Source: Candidatus Zhuqueibacterota bacterium | GTDB lineage: Bacteria > Zhuqueibacterota > Zhuqueibacteria > Residuimicrobiales > Oceaniaggregativiventaceae | Reading direction: 5' to 3' | Assembly: GCA_014728115.1 (NCBI GenBank) | Contig: WJME01000218.1 | Location: 1-64,000, forward strand | DNA: 64,000 nucleotides | Part shown: one piece after another, positions 3,847-38,540 of the stretch | Layout of the letters: each line of letters opens with the position of its first letter | How positions within the stretch are numbered: position 1 is the stretch's first letter | Notes under the pieces: generated by a model | The model's input: the letters and a program-made list of their open reading frames with translations, nothing else | Databases searched by the model: none | What the model was told of the DNA's origin: nothing | Translations under genes and position numbers: made by a program

Positions 3847-6297
3847 TTATTCCTGTGGCCCCTTTTTTTTATGTAAAGAGAGCAAAGCTCTGAGTTCTTG
3901 TAAGGAAAGGTCTTTAATCAGAGCCAATTTCCTTCGCTCTTGCGCCGAAAGGTTTGTAGGCGTGGCCATTTCCAAGAGATCTGCCAACAGGTTCCATTCC
4001 GGTTCTGGTTGTTTGTATTGGGGTGAGAGATGGTCCAGATCGATTTCCAAAGGTGTATGAAATTGAGATTCTTGGTCCATTAACCAGGGGGTTCGGCGCA
4101 ACTGTCTTACAAAGGCGGCGGGAAATGCAGCACTTTTTTTGTGAATATCCAGCCAGGCATATTCACCCATAAACTCCTTTTCATACAGATTTATCATTTC
4201 CAGCAACATGTTCCACAAGAGTACACTTTTTGATGACGTAACCGATTCCAGAAATGAATTCAGTCCGTCCAGCTGATAATCATGAATATAAAGTTCTCTG
4301 TCGATAACCCACTTGCCCTCTCTCAGGTCTCTCTTTTCGCTATCAGAAAGATCGCTCTTGACAGATATTCTGCGTGGAAGACGGCGTAAACCCAGGTTGT
4401 GCAAAAAAGGGAGCAATTTATCCTGAGAAAACCGCTCCAACAGTCGCTGTTTCACAAACCAACGATCCATGTCTTGAAAATAACTCTTGAGAGTCTCAGT
4501 GGGCCAGTATATCTTATCCGGATACTGTAATAATGTTCCCTCTTTGGGGTGATGCGCTGCAACAAGAGCAAATTCGGATATTCGTTTGGCCAAAACCGTT
4601 TGTTGTTGGCTCCCAAGGCCTGTGTACAGATCAAGCAGTTGCTGTATATCTTTTTCATATTTTTGCCACTGAATCCTCTTTGGCTCTCCATAGTTCCGCA
4701 ATAAAAGATTGAGTTCAGCCATGGTGTCGGGTTCATTCAATCCCAATCTTTGCAAAAAATGACGACTTTTGGAATCCCTGCATATCGATCGTTTGATGAT
4801 GGGTAGAGACGTGGCTCTTTTGGGTGGGGGCAAATAGCATTTGATCTCATTTTCGGCCTGATTCAGGTGCACATGCCGCCCATCTTCCAGTCGCAGGATG
4901 GGCAGATATCTGAACAAGGGCATGGCCGAACGGCTGGACTTGTGCCATAACTCGGGCCGTTTGAACAGATATCTGTACAGTTTTATGAGCCATCCATCCG
5001 GTTGCTCCTGAATAAACGACAGATCTATTTGGGTCAATAATGTTTCCGGATTTTGCCATTCGAGTCCCATATCCGGCAGTGCCGAACGGATTCGGGAAGA
5101 GCTGCAGAGCAGGGGGTGCAGCCACCCTTGCTTGTTGAGGTGAGACAAACGGTTTGCATCAAAGAGCTCGATCAATTCCCTATCCTGACCGGCAATCAGA
5201 TCTTTTGGCAGATGCAAGTTTTGATTTTCATCCGGCAGCAGCGCATTTTCCTTCAAGGCTTTGATCAGGGCTTTATAAAAGAGACGATAGACAGCGTCCT
5301 GATCTGCTTTGGATTTATCTACGGGCAAGACATCCAGATGGAGCGGATCATAATGCCCCTTGTGAGTCAGTTCACCGAGCTTGTTGTCCAAAAGGTCGGC
5401 GCTCGCTTTTACTATTTTTTCGTTGATCGACTCGTGCAGAGGAATCTGTTCGCGGTTCGGGGTCGTGCGGTAATCTCCATGCAATGAAAACGGCAAAGGA
5501 TTGTGCTTTTCAGTGGGCAAAAATACACACCATTTTGCATCGGGATCAGCACAGAGTTTGTCCTGCTTTAAGCGAAATGCAAGACTATAGCCGACATCTG
5601 TTTCGTCAGGCAACCTGAGTGAATTTTCCAGCATTAAAAACCGATAGCTTTTCTGTGAATCGTGAATCGATTTGATTGTCAGGGTGGGGTCCGGAGAATG
5701 GGACTCGATCTGCCACTCGCTCCCCTGGGTTTTGGTTTGCCAGGTGAGGGTTGTAATATGATTTAAAAATAGCATCACATGAGGAGTCAGATTGTGCAAT
5801 TGCTGATCAATCAGCTCGTAAATGTCTTCTTTTGATCTGAATTCATGATCAAAAGGAAACGAAAAGATTGTCCCTGACTCGGCCAACTCTGGTGAATCCA
5901 GTTCCACCGGCAAAACAAAATCGCGGATGTTAAAATGAAACGATCCCGAATGGATTTGCGGCGACCGGCTGATGGCATAGACGGACTTGAATCCCACGCC
6001 GAACTTGCCGATCTGATTCAGGTTCTTGTCTTTTGTGGTCACGCCTATTGATGTTATCGCCTCAACATCATTTATGTCGAACGGACGACCATCATGTATA
6101 CATTCCAGTCTGTGGTTTAAAAGCTTGAAATGGATGTTCGATGCCCCGGCATCGTCTGCGTTTTGAATCAATTCATAGATAAAATGCGCGGGATTCTCAT
6201 AATTGCCGACAAGCAGATCTTTGAACCGGAATCGATTCTCTTTCAAGGCGTTTAAAAATTGTTGACGTTTTTGACTCAGTTCCTGCAGAGATTGCAT
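3847..6297 (-). CDS. Sacsin/HSP90-type GHKL ATPase protein of unknown role
   Basis: 816 residues. The first ~200 residues are a GHKL ATPase domain of the sacsin type. The N-box is ELIQNADDA (42-50), followed by DGRPF, the SIGVTTK motif and the glycine-rich lid GKFGVGFKSVY (97-107). The remaining ~600 residues are helical in character and match no family I recognise. Proteins of this class often occur as solitary genes or in defence islands, where the ATPase acts as a sensor or clamp, but no nuclease or other defence gene lies next to it. The ATG at 6297 is chosen because AGAAGGAG precedes it; an upstream in-frame start lacks a site. It has its own terminator, so it is a single-gene unit. Confidence 0.75.
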   Translation of the reverse strand: MQSLQELSQKRQQFLNALKENRFRFKDLLVGNYENPAHFIYELIQNADDAGASNIHFKLLNHRLECIHDGRPFDINDVEAITSIGVTTKDKNLNQIGKFGVGFKSVYAISRSPQIHSGSFHFNIRDFVLPVELDSPELAESGTIFSFPFDHEFRSKEDIYELIDQQLHNLTPHVMLFLNHITTLTWQTKTQGSEWQIESHSPDPTLTIKSIHDSQKSYRFLMLENSLRLPDETDVGYSLAFRLKQDKLCADPDAKWCVFLPTEKHNPLPFSLHGDYRTTPNREQIPLHESINEKIVKASADLLDNKLGELTHKGHYDPLHLDVLPVDKSKADQDAVYRLFYKALIKALKENALLPDENQNLHLPKDLIAGQDRELIELFDANRLSHLNKQGWLHPLLCSSSRIRSALPDMGLEWQNPETLLTQIDLSFIQEQPDGWLIKLYRYLFKRPELWHKSSRSAMPLFRYLPILRLEDGRHVHLNQAENEIKCYLPPPKRATSLPIIKRSICRDSKSRHFLQRLGLNEPDTMAELNLLLRNYGEPKRIQWQKYEKDIQQLLDLYTGLGSQQQTVLAKRISEFALVAAHHPKEGTLLQYPDKIYWPTETLKSYFQDMDRWFVKQRLLERFSQDKLLPFLHNLGLRRLPRRISVKSDLSDSEKRDLREGKWVIDRELYIHDYQLDGLNSFLESVTSSKSVLLWNMLLEMINLYEKEFMGEYAWLDIHKKSAAFPAAFVRQLRRTPWLMDQESQFHTPLEIDLDHLSPQYKQPEPEWNLLADLLEMATPTNLSAQERRKLALIKDLSLQELRALLSLHKKKGPQE

Positions 6298-6496
6298 CCG
6301 TTTGCTCCTTCTGCACAAGATAATCATATTTTAAGGGGAAATCCATGAAAATTCGCTGGTTCAGATAAGGTCTGTCAGAATTGTCGTGGGACGATCTGAT
6401 ACCGACCAGATGTGGCAAAAAAGCATTGCTTTTAAATTTTAGATCTGTACATTGTAGTGATTATCTCTCTGTGAATCCATTTCAGGAGCAAATATC

Positions 6497-19077: not shown

Positions 19078-20118
19078 ATGATGACCCAAAAAGCTACGAT
19101 CATATTTGTCCTATTGATGTTTATTGCGTTGAGTCCTGGAATAGCCCAAGATCCACACTATATTCTCAACCCCGAAGCAGATACCTATATCAGTGGCCGG
19201 AATAATGGCGATTTTGTGCATGGCCACCCGGATAGCACGGGCGACAATTATGTCATGCTGGTGGTGAAAAATGAAGGTGAACCTGTCGCGGGAAATGGAT
19301 TTTATCGGGAAGCTATGATGCGGTTCGATCTCTCCCCCATCGAGGAAAAAATCGAAAAAGTAGAACTGCGTCTCTGGAATTTTTATAAGGCAAGCTGGCC
19401 GGAATACGAGGATACGCTGCGATTCGGGGCTTATTTGATCAAAGATGATGGCTGGGACGAACAGACCCTTACCTGGAATATGGCCCCGATTCCCGAGTTC
19501 GATATCCCACTGGAAGTCGTGGATATTATGGCCTTAAAAGAATCCAAAAAAGTCGTCGATGACCCGGAGCATGGATCTGTTGAAGTGGGCTATTATGGCT
19601 GGACCACAGCCGGCGTTCTCGATGCAGCTATCTTTGAAAATGAACGGGCTGGTGACGGCAAAATTTCATTCAATATTTGGGGTAAATCCATTAAAGTTTA
19701 TGGAGAAACCGGTAAAACCTGGCATGCCTTTGTCTCCAAAGACAGCGCCGCTATGGTAGAAGACGATATCGCTCCCAGACTGTTGGTATGGGTGGAAGGC
19801 GGATCGCCAGTGGCGGTCGAGGGGCATGCCCGTACAGACCTGAAATTCGAGTTGCGCTCCAATTATCCCAATCCGTTCAATCCTTCGACAACGATTACCT
19901 ATTCTCTGGCCAAAAAATCTGTTACCAAATTGATGATCTATAATGCGCTGGGGCAACCCATTCGTACGATGACGAATATCCCCAATACAGCGGGTATTCA
20001 CTCGATTATATGGAATGGATTGACCGATAAAGGTGACTATGCACCGACAGGCGTTTATTTTTATAAATTGTCCTCCGGTGATTATTCCCAAATACGTAAA
20101 ATGATATTGATGAAATAG
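19078..20118 (+). CDS. Secreted DNRLRE (CBM96-like) protein with T9SS sorting domain
   Basis: 346 residues. After a signal peptide (near GIAQ) comes a DNRLRE-type beta-sandwich (about 25-240). Its hallmarks are EADTYIS near the start, REAMMRFDLSPI, VELRLWN, WDEQTLTWNMAP and a final FVSKDSA... LLVWVE strand. The DNRLRE/CBM96 family binds carbohydrates, with polyanionic ligands reported for some members. A type A sorting domain follows (SNYPNPFNPSTTITY, ending RKMILMK). With no enzyme domain attached, it is probably a surface glycan-binding protein. RBS AAGGGGTGC is before the ATG. Confidence 0.85.
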   Translation: MMTQKATIIFVLLMFIALSPGIAQDPHYILNPEADTYISGRNNGDFVHGHPDSTGDNYVMLVVKNEGEPVAGNGFYREAMMRFDLSPIEEKIEKVELRLWNFYKASWPEYEDTLRFGAYLIKDDGWDEQTLTWNMAPIPEFDIPLEVVDIMALKESKKVVDDPEHGSVEVGYYGWTTAGVLDAAIFENERAGDGKISFNIWGKSIKVYGETGKTWHAFVSKDSAAMVEDDIAPRLLVWVEGGSPVAVEGHARTDLKFELRSNYPNPFNPSTTITYSLAKKSVTKLMIYNALGQPIRTMTNIPNTAGIHSIIWNGLTDKGDYAPTGVYFYKLSSGDYSQIRKMILMK

Positions 20119-22312: not shown

Positions 22313-22410
22313 GACATTTATAGTGATGGTGTAACAACAGTCAATCCCGTCTGGTTCCGTTATCAAAGAGGTCAGGGTTTTTGTCTCTGTCTTTGGTCAT
22401 CGGAGGTAGA

Positions 22411-25044
22411 TTGTTTATATTTCTTTTCGTATACAAGAGGTGTGCTCTAGAGTTGAACAAGTCCTTGCTCTTTCTACTTTTTTTCAGTCTATTATTCTCT
22501 TTTCGGGCCCGTGCGGCATCCCGATCTCCTGTAGTTTTTGATTGGCTCAACTTTGGGAAAGCCAGCCATGTTATAACGCGTGAAATCCTTCCTGAACACG
22601 AGTTGATTATCGAATACTTTTCTCAGGGCTTTATTGTGAGGTCGATGAAGAACGGAATCCTTGCCTATTCCGACCGCAGTTCTTTGAACCGAAAAGAGAC
22701 TCTGAAAACGCTTTTGCCTCTCCTGGAACAGCTGTCTCCCGCAAAGAGATCGATCAAAAAACTATTTCATCAGCAATGGCCTGCAAAAGGCTCTACGATC
22801 TATGATGGCTGGATTCAAACTGCATGGCATCAGCGATCACCCTTTAATCAACTCTGTCCTATCGACCCTTTGTCGGGTCAACGGTCGCTGACCGGATGTG
22901 TCTCTATTGCAATCGGACAATTACTGCCGTTATTGCAGAATTTTTTCCCCCCGAGCTTGTCAGATTCAGACCACTATCAGACCCTCACTCGTAAGATCAA
23001 GATCGATGCAGATGCTGAAAAGCTTGATTTTGTAAAATTTGATCAATTGAATCAAAAGATCGAGACGATTTCAGATAAAATTAATTCCGGCTTGGTGTTG
23101 AGTCATTCGGAAATCGCATGGTTGCTCTTTTATCTCGGGGTACTTGCAGAAACCGACTATACCAGCGAACTCTCCTCCAGCGGAGTCAATTTAAAAACCC
23201 TGTTACACGAGATAGGGTATCCTACTGCCAAGCTAGATCACGAGCTGGATTTGAATACGTTGCAGCAGTTGAAGCAAAATATCATGAACGGTTCGCCTGT
23301 TGTTTTGGTGATACCCGGTCATGCGGTGATTGCTGACGGTTATAACACCGGGGGATTCTATCATTTGAATTATGGCTGGGGAGAACAAGAGCCTCAGGCT
23401 CTTCAGGAGGCCTGGTTTCGCCTCGATAATGGTTCAGAGCCCATCATTCTGGATGTGGTTTATGATATCGCCCAGACAGAATCTCCTCTGATACTCGATA
23501 AAGAGCAAATAGAAATGGCTGTTTTTGCACCGGGTGAAGCCGGAGACTCTAATCTGATCCTCACCAACCCGTATGATTCCCCGCAACGTATCGACCATGT
23601 TCGGGTTGAGCCGCCGTTTACAGTGAGCTGGGACGGAGAGGATTTTGCTGATTCTGTGGGTTCAGCCATCGTTCACCCCTTTCAGAGTCTCCCTTTGAAC
23701 CTTCGTTATGCGCCGCAAAACCATGATTCTGTATTCTTGGATCTTTTGATATCATGCAATGATGGTTCATTTTTCCTTTGTCCTGTGCTAAAGGGCTCTT
23801 TACAGCCTGTTCGCGGAACCCGGGTTTCAGCCGGAACTGTATCGGGTACCTGGAAAAAAGAGCATTCCCCCTATAATGTGTTCGGCTCCATTCAAGTGGC
23901 CCAACAGGAGAGATTGATTATCGAACCCGGTGTCGAGATTGTGTTTTGGAATGGAGGAAACCTGGTCGTAAAAGGCGATGCGCAACTTTTGGCCCGGGGG
24001 GCACCGGCGGACTCTATACGCTTTTATCCCGCCAAGCCGGACCAGCCCTGGCAAGGAATCAATTTCTTTGCCAGCTATGAGGATGATAGCCTTACATATT
24101 GTGTGATTCGCCACGCCCATTCGCAGGATTGGGGTGGCGGATTATGGATTTCCGATACCTCGCCATTTTTTCGTGGATGCCGTGTCTCCGATAATACGGC
24201 TCGCTATGGTGGGGGCATGTACTTGTGGAAAGCAAAGCCGGTGATTAAAAATACACTCATTGTGCACAATCGCGCGCATTATGGCGGGGCTGTTTATGCC
24301 GATGTGCATAGTCATCCGAAATTTTTCAATGTCACTGTCGCCGAGAATGAGGCTGCTTCCGGGGGTCTCGTTTATGCCAGTATGAGCAATTCGATTACGT
24401 TTAAGAACAGCATCCTTTGGAACAATTTTGCTGACGATACTGCGGCCATTTCCCTGAGCAGCAAGGATGTGCTCTCTTTCGATTTTGCCTGTATCGATAC
24501 CTCAAATCATATCGACTGGCGATTTCCCGTTCACGTGGATGTCGTGTACAAAGGAGAGAACCTTTTCACTGATCCCCATTTTCTTGCCGGTTATCATCTT
24601 GCACCGGATTCACCATGTATCGATGCGGGGGACCCGGATCCAAAATTCAATGACCCGCCTGATCCGTGGCATTCAGAGTTGGCCGCTTTTCCGGCCTTGC
24701 GGAGCGTCCGCAATGATCTTGGGGTCTTTGGGGGAGGAGCTGAAGAGGGTGCTCTACCGACAGGCATCAGAACAAAAACAATCATTGCGAACAAGGGGCT
24801 GCGGGCTTTTCCGAATCCGTTTGCCTCATTGGTAAATTTAGAGTTTGAGATTGTGAAAAGATGCCATGTACGCCTGGACATTTATAATGTCAGGGGTCAG
24901 ATCATCGAAACGCTCCTGGATCAGCCCATGGGTTTGGGAAAGTATCGGATTCAATGGTCCTCTGGAAATCATCCTGTTGGCCCATATTTTGTTCGATTAA
25001 AACACCAAAAAGCAGAATGTATAAAGATCCTCCATCTTGAATAG
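22411..25044 (+). CDS. Secreted C10-family cysteine peptidase fused to a beta-helix, with degenerate sorting domain
   Basis: 877 residues from the TTG at 22411, which follows CGGAGG; another TTG at 22453 would give a cleaner signal peptide, so the start is unsettled. A propeptide-like region leads into a streptopain (C10) domain. Catalytic Cys163 lies in LTGCVSIAIGQ, preceded by the WxQ...N..CP pattern. His304 lies in PGHAVIADGY, followed by HLNYGWG. The Cys-His spacing of 141 is normal for C10. After a beta-sandwich comes a right-handed beta-helix (about 520-720, repeated GGGLW/GGGMY/GGAVY turns). The C-terminal domain is a diverged type A form (AFPNPFASLVNLEF). It probably acts at the surface on protein or glycoprotein, or matures neighbouring cargo. 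Confidence 0.85.
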   Translation: MFIFLFVYKRCALELNKSLLFLLFFSLLFSFRARAASRSPVVFDWLNFGKASHVITREILPEHELIIEYFSQGFIVRSMKNGILAYSDRSSLNRKETLKTLLPLLEQLSPAKRSIKKLFHQQWPAKGSTIYDGWIQTAWHQRSPFNQLCPIDPLSGQRSLTGCVSIAIGQLLPLLQNFFPPSLSDSDHYQTLTRKIKIDADAEKLDFVKFDQLNQKIETISDKINSGLVLSHSEIAWLLFYLGVLAETDYTSELSSSGVNLKTLLHEIGYPTAKLDHELDLNTLQQLKQNIMNGSPVVLVIPGHAVIADGYNTGGFYHLNYGWGEQEPQALQEAWFRLDNGSEPIILDVVYDIAQTESPLILDKEQIEMAVFAPGEAGDSNLILTNPYDSPQRIDHVRVEPPFTVSWDGEDFADSVGSAIVHPFQSLPLNLRYAPQNHDSVFLDLLISCNDGSFFLCPVLKGSLQPVRGTRVSAGTVSGTWKKEHSPYNVFGSIQVAQQERLIIEPGVEIVFWNGGNLVVKGDAQLLARGAPADSIRFYPAKPDQPWQGINFFASYEDDSLTYCVIRHAHSQDWGGGLWISDTSPFFRGCRVSDNTARYGGGMYLWKAKPVIKNTLIVHNRAHYGGAVYADVHSHPKFFNVTVAENEAASGGLVYASMSNSITFKNSILWNNFADDTAAISLSSKDVLSFDFACIDTSNHIDWRFPVHVDVVYKGENLFTDPHFLAGYHLAPDSPCIDAGDPDPKFNDPPDPWHSELAAFPALRSVRNDLGVFGGGAEEGALPTGIRTKTIIANKGLRAFPNPFASLVNLEFEIVKRCHVRLDIYNVRGQIIETLLDQPMGLGKYRIQWSSGNHPVGPYFVRLKHQKAECIKILHLE

Positions 25045-25083: not shown

Positions 25084-27315
25084 ATGCGATTTGTTACAAT
25101 TGGACTTTTATTTGTCAGTGGTTTGAGTTTTGCCGCAGGCTCGGAATGGGCCAGACCGGATAGCATTTGGGAATCTCACTATCGACAGCGCCTTGAAAAG
25201 GTCATTACTGCACATTACCCGTGGTCTATCGACCGGTCCGGTGATCCGGATGCAGGCAAACGCGCCTGGTCACCCTTGCTGGCCAATATGTGGCATGACC
25301 GTCATTCAGACGATGCTCTGAATGAGTGGATCGAGGGCAGAGGATTTGATTTGCTCAAAAGCAATACTGCAGGATCTTTTTACAAGCCCTTTTCTTGCCC
25401 GGGATATGCGCTCTATTATTTTCTCTTCAAAGATCAATTGCCATCTGCCCACCGTGATCTGGTAAAAACAATGCTCTATGACAAGGGCTGGAGTTATCTC
25501 CGCCGCCCGGATCACCATATGGATCCCATTTATCGGATCACGGAATTCAATTCCGAAAATTTCAACTGGATGTCCCGTTTGACCGGATTCTTGTTCGCAC
25601 ACGAATATAATGATCCTGATCAGATTGACTTTTTCGAGACCTATGTGGATAACTGGACCCGCGCTATCTTCAATGCCGGACGGGTGGAATGGGATTCCAA
25701 TGTTTATTTTGCATATTGCTTTCAGCCGGCCCTGGTGCTCTATGAATGTGCGCCCACCCCAAAATCGAAACGCCAGGCGCAGGCTGTATTGGACTGGATG
25801 TGCATCACTGCTGCTCTTCATTATATGGACGGGTTTCAGTCCGGTCCGGATGTGCGCGCAAAGGCCAGAGCGTATCGTCCCTTTGACGGCTCGGCATGGT
25901 TTTACACCAATCTCTATTTTGCCGAGTTTGGCGCCTATCCCTCGATTACAGAACAGGAATGGATCGATCAGGCAAAACGACATTTTGTGGGATTCGCAGC
26001 ATGGTCATCCTATCGGCCTCCTCTGGTCGCCATCGATATTGCGCAGCGCAGGTTCGAGACACCGATAGAGATGCACAATGCCAAACCGTTTTATCATCTG
26101 GATCAGAACAATTACGCCGATTGGAAGGGAGATACTCCCTCGAGCCGGCGCTTTGAATTCGAGACGCTCTATCTGGAGAAAAATTACACATTAGGCAGTC
26201 TGGCCACGTTTCGACCCGATGGCAATGCTGTGATGAATACCCAGAATCAAAAAATGTTCAGCGAACAAAATGTCTGGAGACTTGCGGTCAGGCAACATAC
26301 TGGTGGGGCTTTGCAGGTGTTTGGAAATGCCGGGGAAGATATGGATATGGCCGGACGTTGTGCGTTGGAGCAGATCGCACAATATGAAAATGTCATGATC
26401 AGAGTCATGAAACATCAACTAAAGATGTGGATTGCTTTGCCCCAGTCTGCAACGGTGATACGAAAAGACAGCATCCTGTTTGCCAATCTCGGACACAATG
26501 TTTACCTGGCTGTACTCGCTTTTAATTTGCCTCTTATTGATTCTGCCACGTTTGATGCGACGCATGACCGCTATACATGGCACGATCGCCGGTCCGGTGA
26601 TGACTTGCGAGGAATGGTGCTGGAGGCAGGAACCAAAGAAAATTATGGCTCTCTGGAAACGTTTATACAAGAAATCATGCTCCATCGCCAATTAACACAG
26701 GTCGGGGATGATTCAATACAATACGTGTTCGATAACAAAAAATTGGAAATGCGGTATATGCCTCCTACCGTCTATACACTTGTCGATGGCACCGTGATCG
26801 ATCCTGCGGGAGTGATTCCCAGGGTATGGCGTGATGGTCGTGAGGTCGAATTTTCTTTATGGGAGAGTTATGAGGTGGTCAGGGGTGAGCCGATTGTATC
26901 GCAAGAATGGTCAGGAGGGGAACTGTCTGCTCAGGTATATGGCAAAGGAATGACCATCCGGGCGGACGATCGATCTGCAGACATTCGCTGGAGCCCTATC
27001 GGCGAGACTGGAATTCAAGAAATCCCTTTACCGATACACAAAACAGAGGGTCCCTTTCCCTTTCCCAATCCTTTCGATGTAAGTACAGTGATTCCTCTGC
27101 ACTGTAAAGAGCCGGGTGAGGTTAAAATCGATATTTGGAACACGAATGGACAGCTTGTGCGAACGTTATTTCATGGATATTTGTCTGCAGGACAGCACCG
27201 ATACAAGTGGAAGGGGCTAGACGATTGTGGTCACGCTGTAGCCAGGGGTCTTTATTTTTGCCGTGTATCCACTCCCGACAAGGCTTTTACGTTCAAACTT
27301 GCATATTTGCTATGA
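25084..27315 (+). CDS. Secreted helical-toroid protein, putative lyase/hydrolase paralogue A
   Basis: 743 residues. A signal peptide (near FAAG) is followed by ~330 helical residues and then a beta-rich half, the layout of (alpha/alpha)-toroid plus beta-sandwich polysaccharide lyases and related hydrolases. It shares with the next gene an SEN/TEN segment (N159, here followed by Phe160) and the motif FxAGxxEWDSxxY (E202 to Y208). The same overall order of domains is kept. No named family could be assigned. The C-terminal domain is weakly conserved (FPFPNPFDVSTVI ... FKLAYLL). It starts 39 bases after the peptidase gene. The family is inferred from architecture only. Confidence 0.7.
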   Translation: MRFVTIGLLFVSGLSFAAGSEWARPDSIWESHYRQRLEKVITAHYPWSIDRSGDPDAGKRAWSPLLANMWHDRHSDDALNEWIEGRGFDLLKSNTAGSFYKPFSCPGYALYYFLFKDQLPSAHRDLVKTMLYDKGWSYLRRPDHHMDPIYRITEFNSENFNWMSRLTGFLFAHEYNDPDQIDFFETYVDNWTRAIFNAGRVEWDSNVYFAYCFQPALVLYECAPTPKSKRQAQAVLDWMCITAALHYMDGFQSGPDVRAKARAYRPFDGSAWFYTNLYFAEFGAYPSITEQEWIDQAKRHFVGFAAWSSYRPPLVAIDIAQRRFETPIEMHNAKPFYHLDQNNYADWKGDTPSSRRFEFETLYLEKNYTLGSLATFRPDGNAVMNTQNQKMFSEQNVWRLAVRQHTGGALQVFGNAGEDMDMAGRCALEQIAQYENVMIRVMKHQLKMWIALPQSATVIRKDSILFANLGHNVYLAVLAFNLPLIDSATFDATHDRYTWHDRRSGDDLRGMVLEAGTKENYGSLETFIQEIMLHRQLTQVGDDSIQYVFDNKKLEMRYMPPTVYTLVDGTVIDPAGVIPRVWRDGREVEFSLWESYEVVRGEPIVSQEWSGGELSAQVYGKGMTIRADDRSADIRWSPIGETGIQEIPLPIHKTEGPFPFPNPFDVSTVIPLHCKEPGEVKIDIWNTNGQLVRTLFHGYLSAGQHRYKWKGLDDCGHAVARGLYFCRVSTPDKAFTFKLAYLL

Positions 27316-27334
27316 CATATGAAAAGGAAGAAAA

Positions 27335-29539
27335 ATGATCTTTTTAAACAGGCTATCTTTTATTTTCATGATCAGCTTTGTGATTGTGATGAATGGATGG
27401 ACTCTAGACTCTTTCTGGGAAATCCCTGATCCCAGGAACACGCTGCATCCCGGAAGTGAGTCAGCTCCCCATAGCGATCCACGCACCTATCCTTTCGAGA
27501 CAGAATTTCAAGAGCGGGTCGATTCACTGGTTGCAGATCTGGCCGCATATCCCATTTGGAATTATCGCAAAGGTTATTACCAGGATGGCAATGATCCGGC
27601 CAAGCGGGTGCCGGCACATGCGGCGGCGCGTTTGATGCTGGATCCAAACGATCCCGATGCCCTGGCTATTATGAATGACGATCGTGCTCCGACAGAGCAC
27701 TATCATTTTGCCGCAGTAAACTGGGCCCGCTACCTGCCCATTTTTGGTTCTACGATTACAGACGAGACCTTTACAGAATACTCTCAACGCGCGGCCACCT
27801 ATGATGCCTATACCCGCCCCGGTGGCACCGAGAATCATAAAGTCATGTGGTTTACAAGCGGTTTGGTCTTGCCTTATTATATCAAAGGGAACAGAATCGG
27901 CGATATGACCAAAGATGCTGCCACAGAAAAGCTCAAGACAATGCTGCGAAATTATGTAAAGGGGCTTTTTTCCGCCGGACAAGGTGAATGGGATTCCAGT
28001 ACTTATCTGGTATTCGATCTCAATGGCATGATGAATATCTATGATTTCCATCCTGATGCCGAGTGCCGGCTCATGGCCAAGGCAGCACTGGACTGGTTCG
28101 TGGCCGGTTATGCCTTAAAATATACGGACGGCATCTTTTGTTCGCCGCATAAACGCGGCTATGCCGATGAACCGGCAGATACCAAAACCGATGAATCGGG
28201 TTGGATCTGGTGGGGCACGGAAAGTGACTGGTTCCCCAAGGATATGGGATATCACTATGCCACATTTCATACCTTTACATCCTCTTATCGTCCCAACAAG
28301 ATATTATGCGACATTGCCACCGGAAACATGCCCGATTTTGAGGCGCGAAACACAAAGCCGGATTATTGGTTCGGTCTTGGTAAATCCCCCACCGCCAATC
28401 AGTTTCAGGAAACGGTTTACAAAACTCCGCACTATACGATGGGAACCCTTTGGCAGGGACATTATACTGATATCTCACGGTTTCAGCTGGTCGCCGAAGG
28501 TCCGCAGGGCGGACTGGATTTTGCCGCCGGAAGCCCTTTGTGCTGGAATGTCTGGAGCAACAAATGGCAGGTCGAATATACTTCTGATGGCAGCGGCTAT
28601 TACGATCAATCCTGCCAGGTCGGTGCTGCCCACATCACGATGACCCGCGTGCCGGATGAAAGCGACTTTCATAAAGAATATCAATATACTTTTTTCGATC
28701 TTCCGCTGGATACCAGCAGTGTGACCGATCCTGTAGCCTGTCAAAAATGGCTGGTCATCGAGGCGGATAGCACATTTATCGGTATCTATCCGTTGGTTAC
28801 CGATTCCACCAAAATCGAATACAACAAGATCTTTTCCCGGCGCCAAAAGGAATATGTAGAAAGACGGCTCTATTTCCATGGGGCCCGCAGCGGATTTATT
28901 CTGCAATTGGCTCATCGCCAGCAATTTGATTCCGTCAAGGCATTTGCCAAGGCGCTACAGCAGTGCAAAGTAAAGGAGAGCGAATACCTGACAGATCAAA
29001 GAGTCGAGTATACATCCTTGTCCGGTCGGGCGATTGATATGCAATACAATCCACGGGCTGACTATGCTTTGGTACATGTGGATGACAAAGCTGTGGATCT
29101 CGATTCGTGGCAGCTTTACGAGTCTCCATATATCACTTGTGAAAATAGTATCATGACCGTTAGCAACGGCAACCAAGGCTATGTGATCGATTTTCGTGAT
29201 GATCTTCCGGTATATTCGGAACTGCAAAGTACGGATTTAAATCACCAGATTCGTTCGGTCGCGAATTTTCATTTGTATGCAAATTATCCCAATCCTTTTA
29301 ATGCCGGGACCACGATTCGTTTTTCGATTGATAAACCGGCCTGGGTGAATATGACATTGTATAATATCCAGGGCCAAAACGTGCGAACTTTGATGGCGCG
29401 TAAAATCTCGAATGGTGATCATCAGATCCGATGGGAGGGAGAGCTGGAGAATGGGCAGCCGGCTCCGACGGGTGTTTATTTTATCCGACTAAACATCGAG
29501 GGTATGATCAAACAGAACAAACTCTTACTTATAAACTAA
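27335..29539 (+). CDS. Secreted helical-toroid protein, putative lyase/hydrolase paralogue B
   Basis: 734 residues, a diverged paralogue of the preceding product. After the signal peptide comes a helical half with TENHKVMW (N167, His168) and SAGQGEWDSSTY (E218 to Y224). A beta-sandwich half follows from about residue 370. The Asn-His pair followed by a Tyr-bearing helix resembles the catalytic layout of toroid lyases acting on uronic-acid polymers, but no established family could be named. A good sorting domain ends it (ANYPNPFNAGTTIRF ... QNKLLLIN). AAAAGGAAG stands before the ATG, and the 19-base gap to the upstream gene indicates co-transcription. Confidence 0.75.
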   Translation: MIFLNRLSFIFMISFVIVMNGWTLDSFWEIPDPRNTLHPGSESAPHSDPRTYPFETEFQERVDSLVADLAAYPIWNYRKGYYQDGNDPAKRVPAHAAARLMLDPNDPDALAIMNDDRAPTEHYHFAAVNWARYLPIFGSTITDETFTEYSQRAATYDAYTRPGGTENHKVMWFTSGLVLPYYIKGNRIGDMTKDAATEKLKTMLRNYVKGLFSAGQGEWDSSTYLVFDLNGMMNIYDFHPDAECRLMAKAALDWFVAGYALKYTDGIFCSPHKRGYADEPADTKTDESGWIWWGTESDWFPKDMGYHYATFHTFTSSYRPNKILCDIATGNMPDFEARNTKPDYWFGLGKSPTANQFQETVYKTPHYTMGTLWQGHYTDISRFQLVAEGPQGGLDFAAGSPLCWNVWSNKWQVEYTSDGSGYYDQSCQVGAAHITMTRVPDESDFHKEYQYTFFDLPLDTSSVTDPVACQKWLVIEADSTFIGIYPLVTDSTKIEYNKIFSRRQKEYVERRLYFHGARSGFILQLAHRQQFDSVKAFAKALQQCKVKESEYLTDQRVEYTSLSGRAIDMQYNPRADYALVHVDDKAVDLDSWQLYESPYITCENSIMTVSNGNQGYVIDFRDDLPVYSELQSTDLNHQIRSVANFHLYANYPNPFNAGTTIRFSIDKPAWVNMTLYNIQGQNVRTLMARKISNGDHQIRWEGELENGQPAPTGVYFIRLNIEGMIKQNKLLLIN

Positions 29540-29551
29540 CGGAGACAGGTT

Positions 29552-31753
29552 ATGAGACGTATGATTCTAATGTTTTTGTGTGTTATGTCCAGTTTTGTAT
29601 GGGGACAAGGTCATCCTCGATTGTTTTTCACTGCTGATGATGTTGAAATGCTTCGGCAGAAAATGGACTCGGAACCTTTCAAGAGTATTGCCAAACAGAT
29701 CGAACACCAGGCAGAAAATGCCACAAGCGGAAATGATCTTTATCTGCATGATCACCGTATGACCAACTGCGGATTCATGTATGTTTTGACCGGCGATACT
29801 TTGTGGGCCCAAAAAGCCAGAGATCATGTGGAGGTGATTCTGGCCAGCGGAGAGTGGGCTAATGCAGGTATAAAAGGGTTGGCCAGTTATATGCACGGCA
29901 AGTCTGTTGCCATTGCCTATGATTTTTGTTACGATGCCTGGCCAGAAGACTTTCGAGCCCGAATTTCTGAAAAGCTCATTCCTCACGCCAATGTGATTAT
30001 CGACGACGGAGGAACACAGCAAAACAGGAACGATGCAAGTAACTGGCAGGGAAACCGATTTTCAGCAGGCGGACTGTGTCTGTTGGCCAGCGATCATTCG
30101 TTTGCCAGTGACAGGTTGGATAAGGCGTATAATAAAGTCGTATTATATTGTGCGGAAAATATGGGCGAGGATCCACAAAGCCGGGGATGGAATATCGAGG
30201 GGATCGGCTATACCACTTATCCGTTTGGCAATTTTATCGGTCCCTTTGGTATTGCCATGGCGCGATTCGACTCTACCCGGGATTTGCGATATGAATACAA
30301 TTCGGTACGCTGGCTCCCCTGGACAATCTATGCCAATGGCTGCCGCATCGAAAATGGAGGCGGCAAATATGGTGTTCACCCTGATTTTGGCGACGACAAT
30401 GCAGGATTGGGAGGAGAAGGGGTTTTTGGATTGGCCTTTTATTATTGTTTTGATGAATTACTGCCCGGATTGAAATATTGGTATGATCGTATGGTCGGGG
30501 AAAAGGGCGATGAGACGTTTGACAGCTCTCGTGACGGTGCAATTTATAGCTATCTCTATTACCGGGATGATATAAACGAACAAGATCCAATGGGTATCCC
30601 CATGTGGCAGAAAGGATTCATCGATACTGCCGGGAACGGATACATCACGTTTCGAAACCAGTACAAAGATTCCACCGATCTCGTCGCCCAGATGTATATC
30701 AAGCTGAGAGGCAACAAGGGACATTCCGGACCGGATGCACTCAGTTTCCGCATTTTAGGACTCGATACTCCGTGGGCTGTCGGTGGCGGACGGTACGGCC
30801 CCAAAATCAATGGACATCATGCTTACTGGAGCTCGATGAATACCCTTTATCCCACTGATCCTGAAGCGCGTGATCTTAAGGTCAATGGGAACTCTGGAAG
30901 GATCGTGGGCAAACCTGTGGTAAAGCCCGATGGGTCTGGATATGTGATCGCGGATATGCGACAAAACAACGTGGGGGTCATGGGACAAAAACGCTGGTTC
31001 GTGGCGGAATACGGCGAAACAACCGGGTGTACTGCCGTGTATGTGATTGCCGATGTTTCCGCTACCGGCACGTATTGGCAACAGGTAACACTTGAAACGC
31101 AGCGTATCGATATCGACGAGTCAGCCAAGACGTTCACCATAAACGGAGCTCACGGGTATACCTTGAAAGGATGGCTGGTTTATCAAAAGGGTCCACATTA
31201 TCTGACCAGTGGCAAACGAATCAGAGGAAGCAATTATGGATACAAGGACATTTATTATGACGAGAACAATTACGTTCATCTGGGCAGCGATGATGGTAAC
31301 TATATTATCGTATTGACGATCGTTCCCCATGGAAAAGACCACCCCAAGCCGGTTTTGTCGGGATCATGGCCAGGTGAGCCAGAAATTCAGGTCAATGACT
31401 GGAAAATCCAACTGATGGATGAACGAGTCGAGTATGGTACACAAAGCGATGTATCTCATTTTGACTCGCAACCCGATAAATTCAGACTCTTGGGCAACTA
31501 TCCGAATCCGTTTAATCCGGCGACGACTATTGAATGCTCTTTACCTACCGCATCAAACCTAAAGATCACCATATTGAACGCATGTGGGCAGGTTGTCCGG
31601 CATTTGTATCAGGGAAAAGCGGATGCCGGGATATTTTCGATCCCCTGGAATGGGCGCAACGATCTGGGTATGTCGATTTCTTCGGGTCTCTATATTGTTA
31701 AAGCGACATCGGAAAACCAGGTCAGGACCCAAAAAATGTTATACCTGAAATAA
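29552..31753 (+). CDS. Secreted heparinase II/III-like polysaccharide lyase with T9SS sorting domain
   Basis: 733 residues. The mature N-terminus reads GHPRLFFTADDVEMLRQKM, the usual entry of heparinase II/III-like toroid lyases. SNWQGNR supplies a catalytic-type Asn and EGIGYTTYP the Tyr region. The beta-sandwich carries GHSGPDALSFRILG, matching the His/Asp segment of the heparinase II/III C-terminal domain (PL12/15/17/21 group). These enzymes cleave uronic-acid linkages by beta-elimination. A type A sorting domain follows (GNYPNPFNPATTIEC ... TQKMLYLK). It starts 12 bases after paralogue B. The PL family and substrate cannot be fixed by eye. Confidence 0.85.
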   Translation: MRRMILMFLCVMSSFVWGQGHPRLFFTADDVEMLRQKMDSEPFKSIAKQIEHQAENATSGNDLYLHDHRMTNCGFMYVLTGDTLWAQKARDHVEVILASGEWANAGIKGLASYMHGKSVAIAYDFCYDAWPEDFRARISEKLIPHANVIIDDGGTQQNRNDASNWQGNRFSAGGLCLLASDHSFASDRLDKAYNKVVLYCAENMGEDPQSRGWNIEGIGYTTYPFGNFIGPFGIAMARFDSTRDLRYEYNSVRWLPWTIYANGCRIENGGGKYGVHPDFGDDNAGLGGEGVFGLAFYYCFDELLPGLKYWYDRMVGEKGDETFDSSRDGAIYSYLYYRDDINEQDPMGIPMWQKGFIDTAGNGYITFRNQYKDSTDLVAQMYIKLRGNKGHSGPDALSFRILGLDTPWAVGGGRYGPKINGHHAYWSSMNTLYPTDPEARDLKVNGNSGRIVGKPVVKPDGSGYVIADMRQNNVGVMGQKRWFVAEYGETTGCTAVYVIADVSATGTYWQQVTLETQRIDIDESAKTFTINGAHGYTLKGWLVYQKGPHYLTSGKRIRGSNYGYKDIYYDENNYVHLGSDDGNYIIVLTIVPHGKDHPKPVLSGSWPGEPEIQVNDWKIQLMDERVEYGTQSDVSHFDSQPDKFRLLGNYPNPFNPATTIECSLPTASNLKITILNACGQVVRHLYQGKADAGIFSIPWNGRNDLGMSISSGLYIVKATSENQVRTQKMLYLK

Positions 31754-34465: not shown

Positions 34466-36868
34466 TCAATAAATTTCTGTGCTTTTATCGACCACGACCG
34501 TCTGGCTGCCACCATAAAGCGAGACGGTGCGGTTGTTCCATTGCAATTCACCCGTCAATCCTTCCGGTAATCGGATCTCTGCCTTTAATCCCGTTTCCCC
34601 TACTCTTTCCAGGTCGACCGTGATCTGGCCCTGAGGGTGAGGCATTGTCGCCCGGCACCGGGTTAACGGCCCAAGGGCGGGCGCTATTTTTATTTTTTTA
34701 AAGCCGGGTTCTGCGGGCAGGATGCCGGCGATGGTCGCCAAGAATTCATACAACGGGGAGGCACTCCAGGCATGGCAATCTGACCGGGTGGGTTCCGGCT
34801 TTTCTGCAAATGTCGACAAGCCAATATCCAGCATCTCGTGCCACGGTTCGAGCTGCTCAGTGAGTTGATCGGCAAAACCTTGTTTTTGCATGGCCCTGAA
34901 CAAATAGAATTTATAATAAAAGGTACATTCTGTCAGAGTTGTATCGGTCAGAATTTTTGTCATGATATCGTATTGCTGATCTTGCGGAAAAAGATCTGTT
35001 AAAATCCCCATGACATTGGCGTGCTGAGTAAAGAGTTCTTTTGTGGGGTCATCTGCAAGCAGACCTCGTTCTTTATCCCAGCAGAGAGTCAGGGTCGATT
35101 CCTTGAGCAGGTTTGAGATTTCCCGAAAATGTTGTGCAGTAATATGGCGGTCGAATGCATCAAACAACTCTTGCATCATATCCAACAAATAGGCGTATTG
35201 TAACGTCACGACACTCGAATTGCCTACTTTGGTTGCAATTGGCTCACCGCTAGGATAGGGAGAAACCCAATCGACAAAGTTCCACCAGGGTAAGGGACCG
35301 AGCATACCTGTTGCGGGATTGATATGCTGCTCAAACCAGTCAAGGACAGCTTTTATATCGGCAAGAAAACTGGCCACGAATTCCGGATCATCGCGCAGCA
35401 TCCAGTAATCATGTACCATTGCAGCCCAGAATAAAGAATAGGGTGGGATGATCTGTGGTAGCGAATGCGGATAGCGACTCTGAGTAAGCCCTTCTGCGTT
35501 GCGGGACTCTTTGAATTGTTGAATCGCCTTGCGCATCAGCCTGTCATCGCCGGAGACATAGAGTGATATGAATGTCTGGATGCGGGTGTCACCGGCGTAT
35601 TGGAGTTGCTCGTAATAGGGACAGTCATAATAGGTTTCATTGGCACAGAGCCGGGCGGTGCGCCAACCCACCTCCCAGATTTTTTCCACATTTTTGAGAT
35701 CTGCTTCAAATGTTGCAACATCTTTAAAGGGGTATGCGGTGAATCTGCTATGAAAATCATGCAGAACAAGCGGTTGCCCGGCGGTTTGAATTTCCATCTC
35801 GATAAACCTGAATGTCCGGAACCATAATGTCTCGAAATGGCGGTGATCCCCTCCGTCCGGGCGGATCCGGTCTTGATAGCCTATAATCGATTTTCCTTTT
35901 ATGTGGTCTCGATGACCCTTTTGGCGTTTATTGTCAAACAGAGCCTCAGAATAGGTGAGCGTTATGGTCGCCCCGCCGCCATTACTCAGTGAAAGACAGG
36001 GATAGGCCGTGCTCAGGCATTCCTGATCGAGCAGGACGGTCACCCGGGTATTGGGGGGGATGGTCCAGTCTCCGGTTCCTTTGAGAAAATCAGGATTGGG
36101 ATCACCGGTACTTTGTGCGATCTTTGTGATACGGACCAGTGAATCTTGCATGGCTGGAATCATGCGTGGTACGAGGGCCCATGGCTGGCTCCACTGTCGA
36201 ATTCCATAGGGAACTGCCCTGCCCAGAGATTGAGGTTCGAGCCAATCGCTGTCGTCAAATTCGATCTCGTTCCAACCCCATGGATATACAGATGCATCGA
36301 TATTATCGCCCGGCCCTATGACAATAAATGTTCTCAGTGCACTCTTGTCAACAGGAAGCGGAGAATACGCTTTATTGTGCAAGATGCGCCACGTTTCAGG
36401 AGAGGTATTGACAATCTTTTCGGTTTCGCTATTGCCCTGCATTAAAAATCCGGTTTGATACGTGACCTGTGCAAAAGGAATCTCTTGCCCCATATTCCAT
36501 ACCACAGCTGCCAGGACATTTTTTCCTGACCGCAGAAATGGCGCCAGATCGATGGTTTCGAATCGCCATTGTTCGAGGTCTCCCCTGGCGGGTCCGATAC
36601 TCACTCGTTGACCATTGACGAACAGTTTGTAGCGATTGTCTGCAGAAACGTGAACGAAAAATGTTTCGGGAAGATCATTTAAATCAAACGCCCGGCGAAA
36701 ATGAAATACCCCATAATCAAATAAAGAGTGATTTGGATGAGAAATCCATTCAGCACTCCATCTTTGATTCAGCAGATCGGGATTGATATTTTCGACGGGA
36801 TATATCGGTTCGGATCGAATCGGATTCAGGAAGAATAACAATAAAAGGGCTGGCCATATGTTTTTCAT
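34466..36868 (-). CDS. Secreted GH78-like alpha-L-rhamnosidase
   Basis: 800 residues from the ATG at 36868, behind AAAGGAGAG; a tandem ATG at 36871 is equally possible. The signal peptide ends near IRS. N-terminal jelly rolls carry SADNRYKLFVNGQRV and GKNVLAAVVWNMG. An (alpha/alpha)6 barrel follows, with the diagnostic DCPYYEQLQYAGDTRIQ stretch that carries the catalytic acid region, and a C-terminal beta-sandwich. GH78 enzymes remove terminal alpha-L-rhamnose from plant or algal polymers. There is no sorting domain, so it is likely periplasmic. It is divergently transcribed from the GH140-like gene. Confidence 0.88.
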   Translation of the reverse strand: MKNIWPALLLLFFLNPIRSEPIYPVENINPDLLNQRWSAEWISHPNHSLFDYGVFHFRRAFDLNDLPETFFVHVSADNRYKLFVNGQRVSIGPARGDLEQWRFETIDLAPFLRSGKNVLAAVVWNMGQEIPFAQVTYQTGFLMQGNSETEKIVNTSPETWRILHNKAYSPLPVDKSALRTFIVIGPGDNIDASVYPWGWNEIEFDDSDWLEPQSLGRAVPYGIRQWSQPWALVPRMIPAMQDSLVRITKIAQSTGDPNPDFLKGTGDWTIPPNTRVTVLLDQECLSTAYPCLSLSNGGGATITLTYSEALFDNKRQKGHRDHIKGKSIIGYQDRIRPDGGDHRHFETLWFRTFRFIEMEIQTAGQPLVLHDFHSRFTAYPFKDVATFEADLKNVEKIWEVGWRTARLCANETYYDCPYYEQLQYAGDTRIQTFISLYVSGDDRLMRKAIQQFKESRNAEGLTQSRYPHSLPQIIPPYSLFWAAMVHDYWMLRDDPEFVASFLADIKAVLDWFEQHINPATGMLGPLPWWNFVDWVSPYPSGEPIATKVGNSSVVTLQYAYLLDMMQELFDAFDRHITAQHFREISNLLKESTLTLCWDKERGLLADDPTKELFTQHANVMGILTDLFPQDQQYDIMTKILTDTTLTECTFYYKFYLFRAMQKQGFADQLTEQLEPWHEMLDIGLSTFAEKPEPTRSDCHAWSASPLYEFLATIAGILPAEPGFKKIKIAPALGPLTRCRATMPHPQGQITVDLERVGETGLKAEIRLPEGLTGELQWNNRTVSLYGGSQTVVVDKSTEIY

Positions 36869-36981
36869 CATCTCTCCTTTAAGCCAAAGCATTTGGTCAG
36901 ATTTTCGCTTTTTCAAATGAACGATAATTATAAAAAAAATACAACATTTTTATGACTGTGACTTTGCAGCGGCCCCCAAAA

Positions 36982-37163: not shown

Positions 37164-38540
37164 ATGCAAAATCGTGTCATCGGATTTTTGTTAGTCCTGA
37201 GCGTGGTCCTTTCAGGAACTCGAATTTTTGCCGTGCAAAAATTGACTATTAGTGACAATCATCGGTATTTGCAAGTTGAGGATGGCACTCCTTTTTTCTA
37301 TCTGGGTGACACTGCCTGGATGTTGTTTCATCGATTAAACCGGCAAGAGGCCGAAAAATACCTGCAAAACCGCGCCGAAAAGGGATTTACGGTGATTCAA
37401 GCTGTGGTTCTGGCAGAGCATGACGGCATTTCCGGTCCCAATGCTTATGGGGAGTTGGCCTTGAAAGACAAAGACCCAACTCAGCCCAATGAAGATTATT
37501 TTAATCATGTCGATGATATCGTCGATATGGCCGACCGATTTGGATTATATATTGGCATGTTGCCGTGCTGGGGAAAATACTGGAGTGAAAATAATCCGGA
37601 GCAAACCATTTTTACCCCAGAAAACGCCCTGATCTATGGGCGGTTTCTGGGCGAGCGTTATAAAGACAAACCTGTCATATGGATCCTGGGAGGAGACCAT
37701 AACATTCACACCGAAACCGAAAGGCAAACCATTATTGCCATGGCTCAGGGATTGCGGGAAGGGGATGGGGGTAATCATCTGATGACGTTTCATCCTCGCG
37801 GCCCGGGTTTTTCATCAGACTATTTTCATGAGGCCGACTGGCTGGATTTCAATATGGTCCAGTCCTCACATGGTGCACACGATCATGATAACGGATTGTT
37901 CATCGAGCATGATTATGCCCTCAAGCCCTTCAAACCCACTCTGGACGGGGAACCGCGATATGAGAATATTCCGGTTGGGTTTTATTTTTCCGGCAATGAC
38001 TGGAAAGATAAATTTACCGACTATGACTGTCGCCAGGCAGCCTATTGGGCGATTCTGGCAGGTGCTTGTGGACATACCTTTGGCAACAACAGTGTGTGGC
38101 AAATGGTGGATACAAATGTAAGGGGTGTTCTCGATGGCCGAATCCCCTGGCATATAGCTATCGATCATCCCGGGGCTGATCAAATGACTCTGCTAAAACA
38201 CTTGTTTACGGTGCGACCGTTCCATAGATTAATGCCCTGCCAGAGTATGATATTGTCCGGACCGAATTCGGGTGGAGGAAAAATACGAGCAGCCCTGGCT
38301 GCGGATAGCAGCTATGCGATTATTTATTCGCCCAGAGGAGCCGCTTTTACGATCGACAAGTCATTTATAAAAGCCAAAAAGCGCAAAGAGATATGGTTCG
38401 ATCCGCGATACGGATTCAGCGATACCATTCATAGCGGAGATACTGCGGGCATGCAAACATATACTCCTCCGACTATGGGAAAGGGAAATGACTGGATCCT
38501 GATTATTGAAGATGCAGATTTGGATCTGCCTATGCCATAG
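37164..38540 (+). CDS. Secreted GH140/DUF4038-type glycosidase
   Basis: 458 residues. A signal peptide (near IFA) leads into a DUF4038 TIM barrel (apiosidase-like). FFYLGDTAWMLFHRL is near the N-terminus. GGDHNIH has the Asp expected as acid/base, and PTLDGEPRYEN has the Glu expected as nucleophile. A C-terminal PF12904-like collagen-binding-type beta domain follows (YSPRGAAFTID ... WFDPRYG). GH140 enzymes release apiose from rhamnogalacturonan II side chains, but the DUF4038 group is broader. AAAAAGGAGAG precedes the ATG. There is no sorting domain, so it is likely periplasmic. Confidence 0.88.
   Translation: MQNRVIGFLLVLSVVLSGTRIFAVQKLTISDNHRYLQVEDGTPFFYLGDTAWMLFHRLNRQEAEKYLQNRAEKGFTVIQAVVLAEHDGISGPNAYGELALKDKDPTQPNEDYFNHVDDIVDMADRFGLYIGMLPCWGKYWSENNPEQTIFTPENALIYGRFLGERYKDKPVIWILGGDHNIHTETERQTIIAMAQGLREGDGGNHLMTFHPRGPGFSSDYFHEADWLDFNMVQSSHGAHDHDNGLFIEHDYALKPFKPTLDGEPRYENIPVGFYFSGNDWKDKFTDYDCRQAAYWAILAGACGHTFGNNSVWQMVDTNVRGVLDGRIPWHIAIDHPGADQMTLLKHLFTVRPFHRLMPCQSMILSGPNSGGGKIRAALAADSSYAIIYSPRGAAFTIDKSFIKAKKRKEIWFDPRYGFSDTIHSGDTAGMQTYTPPTMGKGNDWILIIEDADLDLPMP

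Follow-up and report, generated by a model that had tools for sequence, protein, structure and literature searches.

Two adjacent genes of the window (the whole 64,000-nucleotide stretch of DNA that was analysed), designated A and B, encode homologous secreted proteins with a predicted toroid-lyase fold and belong to a widely distributed family, probably of secreted lyases, that is apparently missing from general domain databases. It is likely that B is a uronate lyase, that A is an altered or accessory partner and that the product of the next gene, C, acts on the same substrate. Apparently missing from these databases, the A/B family would be overlooked in the automatic annotation of carbon-cycling bacteria.

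Table 1. Positions in the window of genes A, B and C, the upstream peptidase gene, and the domains and residues discussed in the text.
Feature	Positions	Strand	Basis
C10 peptidase gene preceding A (beta-helix, T9SS tail)	22381..25044	+	domain scan
Gene A, 743 aa secreted toroid-lyase-fold protein (Asn159-Phe160 clade)	25084..27315	+	ORF, domain scans, AlphaFold model
A: helical toroid domain, aa 27-320	25162..26043	+	DSSP on AlphaFold model
A: Asn159-Phe160, in place of the Asn-His pair of lyases	25558..25563	+	alignment of 112 members
A: Tyr208, invariant	25705..25707	+	alignment of 112 members
A: Arg258, invariant	25855..25857	+	alignment of 112 members
A: antiparallel beta domain, aa 328-638	26065..26997	+	DSSP on AlphaFold model
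A: T9SS type A sorting domain, aa 660-739	27061..27300	+	TIGR04183, 26.9 bits (cutoff 23)
Gene B, 734 aa secreted toroid-lyase-fold protein (Asn167-His168 clade)	27335..29539	+	ORF, domain scans, AlphaFold model
B: helical toroid domain, aa 55-328	27497..28318	+	DSSP on AlphaFold model
B: Asn167-His168, predicted to act in charge neutralisation (Asn) and as second catalytic residue (His)	27833..27838	+	Asn 110/110, His 106/110 scored rows
B: Glu218, invariant	27986..27988	+	112/112
B: Tyr224, predicted catalytic acid/base	28004..28006	+	112/112
B: Arg274, invariant	28154..28156	+	112/112
B: antiparallel beta domain, aa 335-630	28337..29224	+	DSSP on AlphaFold model
B: T9SS type A sorting domain, aa 651-730	29285..29524	+	TIGR04183, 35.5 bits (cutoff 23)
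Gene C, 733 aa heparinase II/III-like protein with T9SS tail	29552..31753	+	family profile; recurrent neighbour of the A/B family
C: Asn164, invariant in the C family	30041..30043	+	C-family conservation
C: His391 in GHSGPD, putative beta-domain catalytic His position	30722..30724	+	inferred from spacing

Gene pair A/B and the predicted fold of its products

Genes A, B and C lie on the forward strand, with gaps of 19 bp (A–B) and 12 bp (B–C), and 39 bp separate the end of the C10 peptidase gene from the start of A. The preliminary description had placed two adjacent homologues here, and both open reading frames were found in these positions. Their products had 29% identity over one stretch of 194 aa (BLASTP, E-value = 7 × 10−18), i.e., homology well above chance; a second stretch (E-value = 7 × 10−15) spanned the terminal part of the beta half together with the T9SS tail common to both. 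An N-terminal hydrophobic segment was present in both proteins, and the C-terminal sorting domains previously noted in them exceeded the curated TIGR04183 cutoff of 23 bits, which identifies A and B as T9SS cargo.

The AlphaFold models of A (pLDDT = 85.9, pTM = 0.90) and B (pLDDT = 74.5, pTM = 0.82, with low confidence in places in the beta domain) both contained the helical half and the beta half described previously, namely, an alpha/alpha toroid followed by an antiparallel beta domain, as in the two-domain superfamily of toroid and beta-sheet lyases. A structure search had been set beforehand as the test of the toroid-lyase interpretation, and both models matched toroid lyases. In the Foldseek comparison with the PDB (E-value ≤ 1 × 10−3), all 37 matches of A were toroid lyases of the PL8, PL12, PL15, PL17, PL21, PL33 and PL35 families, and all 18 matches of B belonged to the same two-domain toroid superfamily, with human dermatan sulfate epimerase 1 among them; overall, the models argue for the toroid-lyase interpretation. 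It should be noted that the TM-scores were modest (0.22–0.44) and the identity was 7–11%, which, like the low confidence in parts of the beta domain of B, counts against the lyase reading; thus, a shared fold is supported, but close kinship is not.

The best structural match of A was the PL35 glycosaminoglycan lyase GAGase II (PDB 8khv, E-value = 1.9 × 10−7), and that of B was the PL33 lyase BT4410 (PDB 8r6z, E-value = 6.9 × 10−7), which has the same two-domain fold. The spacing of Asn and Tyr in both families (N238 and Y291 in PL33; Asn192 and Tyr246, 54 residues apart, in GAGase II) is similar to that in A and B; however, identity was about 10% in each case, no PL33 or PL35 chain in the PDB matched A or B by sequence at an E-value ≤ 10, and neither the invariant H444 of PL33 nor His401 of PL35 has a counterpart in A and B. 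The sequence relative of PL35 is gene C rather than A or B. PL17 and PL15 lyases share the fold of A and B, whereas no sequence or profile similarity to them was detected and their beta-domain His is absent from A and B; the PL15 exo-heparinase has N336-H337 and Y390 (PMC12088678, Table 4), an Asn-His pair as in B. PL8 lyases share the fold of A (structural matches at E-values of about 1 × 10−6), and their Asn and His are non-adjacent (N183, H233, Y242; PMC12088678).

Two alternatives bear on these matches. That the A/B family represents uronate C5-epimerases and not lyases could be suggested by dermatan sulfate epimerase 1 (6hzn), which has the fold of B and was its match 6; this reading is improbable, since the remaining matches at an E-value ≤ 1 × 10−3 were all lyases, 6hzn is an animal enzyme whereas A and B are secreted by bacteria and encoded beside a lyase-like gene, and the T9SS tails of A and B, together with SusC/SusD and glycoside hydrolases in related loci, fit degradation. 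Still less credence is given to A and B being glycoside hydrolases on an alpha/alpha toroid, the other activity proposed earlier. Weak structural matches to GH92 and cellobiose phosphorylase (A) and to HypBA1/GH146 arabinofuranosidases (B) were found, but all had E-values above 1 × 10−3 and fewer aligned columns or a much higher rmsd, and no conserved acid pair typical of those families was identified.

The core regions of A and B had no match in Pfam, NCBIfam or PDB chains by sequence, and neither protein exceeded the gathering score of the Pfam Hepar_II_III or Alginate_lyase families. A profile of 20 members compared with the PDB gave nothing credible (best E-value = 0.065); 10 relatives compared with Pfam gave accessory domains and sub-threshold matches only, and the core of 20 relatives was unmatched in NCBIfam. 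A direct profile link of the family to heparinase II/III or PF05426 proteins was also considered and was rejected after a negative profile–profile comparison, which counts against the lyase reading. B had no match among viral contigs; with an ENH-clade paralogue as a query, three weak partial matches were found on plasmids, annotated as "hypothetical protein" or unannotated. No paper naming the family was found in the open-licence literature. Thus, the confident match to an existing family that would have overturned the preliminary description did not appear in Pfam, NCBIfam or PDB sequences, and by these sequence comparisons the A/B family is apparently unclassified, a judgement that refers to those three resources. 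The pair had also been described as possible founders of a family; A and B are two members of a wide one.

Conserved residues and proposed catalysis

The EN-x and FxAGxxEWDSxxY motifs and their residue numbers were correctly described in both proteins: A contains E158-N159-F160 and FNAGRVEWDSNVY, and B contains E166-N167-H168 and FSAGQGEWDSSTY, the latter including Y224. The difference between Asn167-His168 in B and Asn159-Phe160 in A was likewise confirmed by the sequences and by the alignment of 112 members, in which the Asn, Glu, Tyr and Arg of B were invariant in the scored rows and the His was nearly so (Table 1). The position of His168 is occupied by Phe in A and its two orthologues, and a single protein from Planctomycetota has Leu. 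The Planctomycetota member L059:9305-11311 reads TDNLY where others have TENH and has thus lost the His as well; its long branch makes its place in the tree unsure.

A conserved Asn followed some 50–60 residues later by a catalytic-type Tyr, as is characteristic of the superfamily, was found throughout the scored rows (110/110 and 112/112, respectively), with a spacing of 57 residues in B, 49 in A and 61 in the largest clade, compared with 53–57 in PL33, PL35, PL12, PL39 and PL17 (PMC12088678, Table 4; PMC11848413). Both residues sit at helix starts in the A and B models. In the model of B, one helix starts with N167-H168, and the second helix after it has Y224 at its start; H124 begins an alternate helix before these, and a later helix is preceded by R274; these positions suggest that H124, N167-H168, Y224 and R274 may line one shared rim.

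B is probably an active lyase, as judged from its model and conserved residues, and would most likely cleave a uronic-acid polymer by beta-elimination. Asn167 is predicted to neutralise the uronate carboxylate and Arg274 to help in substrate binding or orientation; catalysis would involve Tyr224, in the role of acid or base, and His168 as a second catalytic residue. For A, in which the His is lost, the most likely options are an altered specificity and a binding or accessory role directed at the glycan of B.

The beta-domain His of the PL12, PL15, PL17, PL21, PL33, PL35 and PL39 families was absent from A, B and clade ii in the 112-member alignment and was present in most of the largest clade. 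In the latter, His356 (L013 numbering) was found in 59 sequences, 159 residues after the Tyr; the corresponding spacing in PL33, PL35 and PL17 is 153–155 (PMC12088678, Table 4; PMC11848413), and by sequence His356 would occupy the expected position of the beta-domain catalytic His. In known relatives, mutation of this His leads to the loss of most or all activity (PMC12088678; PMC11848413). Its absence, given that PL33 and PL35 need it, counts against the lyase reading of A, B and clade ii. On this ground A and B might both be catalytically dead glycan-binding proteins; such a reading is unlikely, as Asn, Tyr, Arg and Glu invariant in 112 members from several phyla are hard to explain without catalysis in at least the majority of them.

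A possible alternative, to which we give less weight than to an accessory role of A, is that both proteins are active lyases of differing specificity, with Tyr208 of A acting as base and acid together with Asn159 and Arg258 and with no His. A retains the Asn, Tyr, Arg, Glu and Asp, and its orthologues (53–54% identity) retain the same set, Phe included; however, A lacks both the beta-domain His and the Asn-adjacent His, and relatives with a mutated beta-domain His keep little or no activity. It is proposed with similar caution that A, B and at least 297 relatives constitute a new PL family in which A, B and clade ii would operate without the beta-domain His, and clade A, which also lacks the Asn-adjacent His, by Asn, Tyr and Arg alone. 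The clades vary at the catalytic His residues and keep the Asn, Tyr, Arg and Glu, and thus offer a natural experiment on the residues required for beta-elimination with the toroid fold.

Phylogeny and distribution of the A/B family

Relatives of A and B were encoded in 297 of 400 candidate stretches, i.e., the family has at least 297 loci in GTDB genomes (80 of these relatives were retrieved), in at least seven phyla (Planctomycetota, Verrucomicrobiota, Bacteroidota, KSB1, Acidobacteriota, Bacillota, Cyanobacteriota and others). Within the phylum of the window, a match to B was found in 35 of 82 genomes. Cultured relatives occur in Cyclobacterium, Phaeodactylibacter, Flexithrix, Persicitalea and Paenibacillus, which makes the family directly testable.

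The tree, constructed from 42 rows by a quick method, revealed four supported clades. B clustered with Planctomycetota and Verrucomicrobiota proteins, whereas A clustered with two orthologues from two other families of the window's class, on a long branch that makes its exact place unsure. The genome of the window encodes one further member, which belongs to clade ii (L039). A and B thus come from different old clades and not from a local duplication; a local tandem duplication had been considered and was unsupported by the tree, with the caution that the branch of A is long. Of the earlier designation of A and B as a paralogue pair, homology and adjacency stand, but the two are not each other's closest relatives.

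Gene C and gene neighbourhoods

The gene following the pair had been described as heparinase II/III-like, which was weak by NCBIfam and clear by the C-family profile against the PDB: PL35 was matched at an E-value of 5 × 10−16 and heparinase II at about 8 × 10−15, and PL17 and PL39 structures were matched too. C is thus a sequence-detectable relative of PL35, PL21 and PL17. Pfam matched only the secretion tail in C of the window and in its L148 orthologue, and despite this kinship the C family (e.g., L067:11784-13727 and L053:7452-9437) may itself be unclassified.

The link of the pair to C proved firmer than could have been known from the window: C-family genes were found near A, B or clade ii members at 15 loci in KSB1, Bacteroidota, Planctomycetota and Verrucomicrobiota, a count that includes related species and contigs cut short and hence does not represent independent events. 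Many of the Bacteroidota loci contained SusC/SusD; in Cyclobacterium, the C-family and A/B-family genes overlap and are accompanied by SusC, SusD and a GH42M-domain gene. In the phylum of the window, C was detected (E-value ≤ 1 × 10−8) only in G000 and G055, close to A both times. The G055 locus (L148) combined A and C with C10 peptidase, GH39, GH42M, GH10, FAD oxidoreductase and GH28 genes, and L053 combined C, a clade ii (ENH) member, GH10, GH28 and GH42M. The similarity of these two settings, one with A and the other with an ENH protein, is consistent with A being active as well as B. Under the preferred reading, the lyase-like C probably acts on a substrate common with A and B. The GH28, GH39 and GH42 genes, together with the rhamnosidase and apiosidase-like neighbours in the window, hint, with low confidence, at an acidic polysaccharide of plant or algal origin.

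No gene for an unsaturated-uronate hydrolase appeared among the window genes scanned, which counts against the lyase reading. A nearby GH88 gene as proof of unsaturated products was dismissed, as the two PF07470 (GH88) hits of the genome are on other contigs. The neighbourhoods of the B clade (L043-L047) had no common theme save two Gfo/Idh oxidoreductases. The C family was found at none of the 40 loci L083-L122, which mostly hold largest-clade members. At 23 of the loci in this range, the largest clade was paired with a protein of about 340 aa containing BNR/Sortilin repeats, encoded on the same strand and mostly within 350 bp; this gene is mostly immediately upstream of the largest-clade gene (e.g., L101:1178-2320 beside L101:2320-4095). 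Related species and truncated contigs enter these counts too, so that they do not represent independent events either.

In three genomes (the window, L146:6109-8772 and L148:13299-16037), A is adjacent or close to a gene for a C10 peptidase carrying a T9SS tail. Positions 19078-20118 of the window encode a CBM96/DNRLRE-domain protein with a T9SS tail, and the start of the L146 gene at 1412-2461, in a comparable place upstream of A, resembles this protein. A few kb past C are an alpha-L-rhamnosidase gene (34466-36916, reverse strand) and an apiosidase-like gene (37164-38540, forward strand), while a Sacsin domain match (PF25794) lies away from the glycan genes, at 3847-6327 on the reverse strand.
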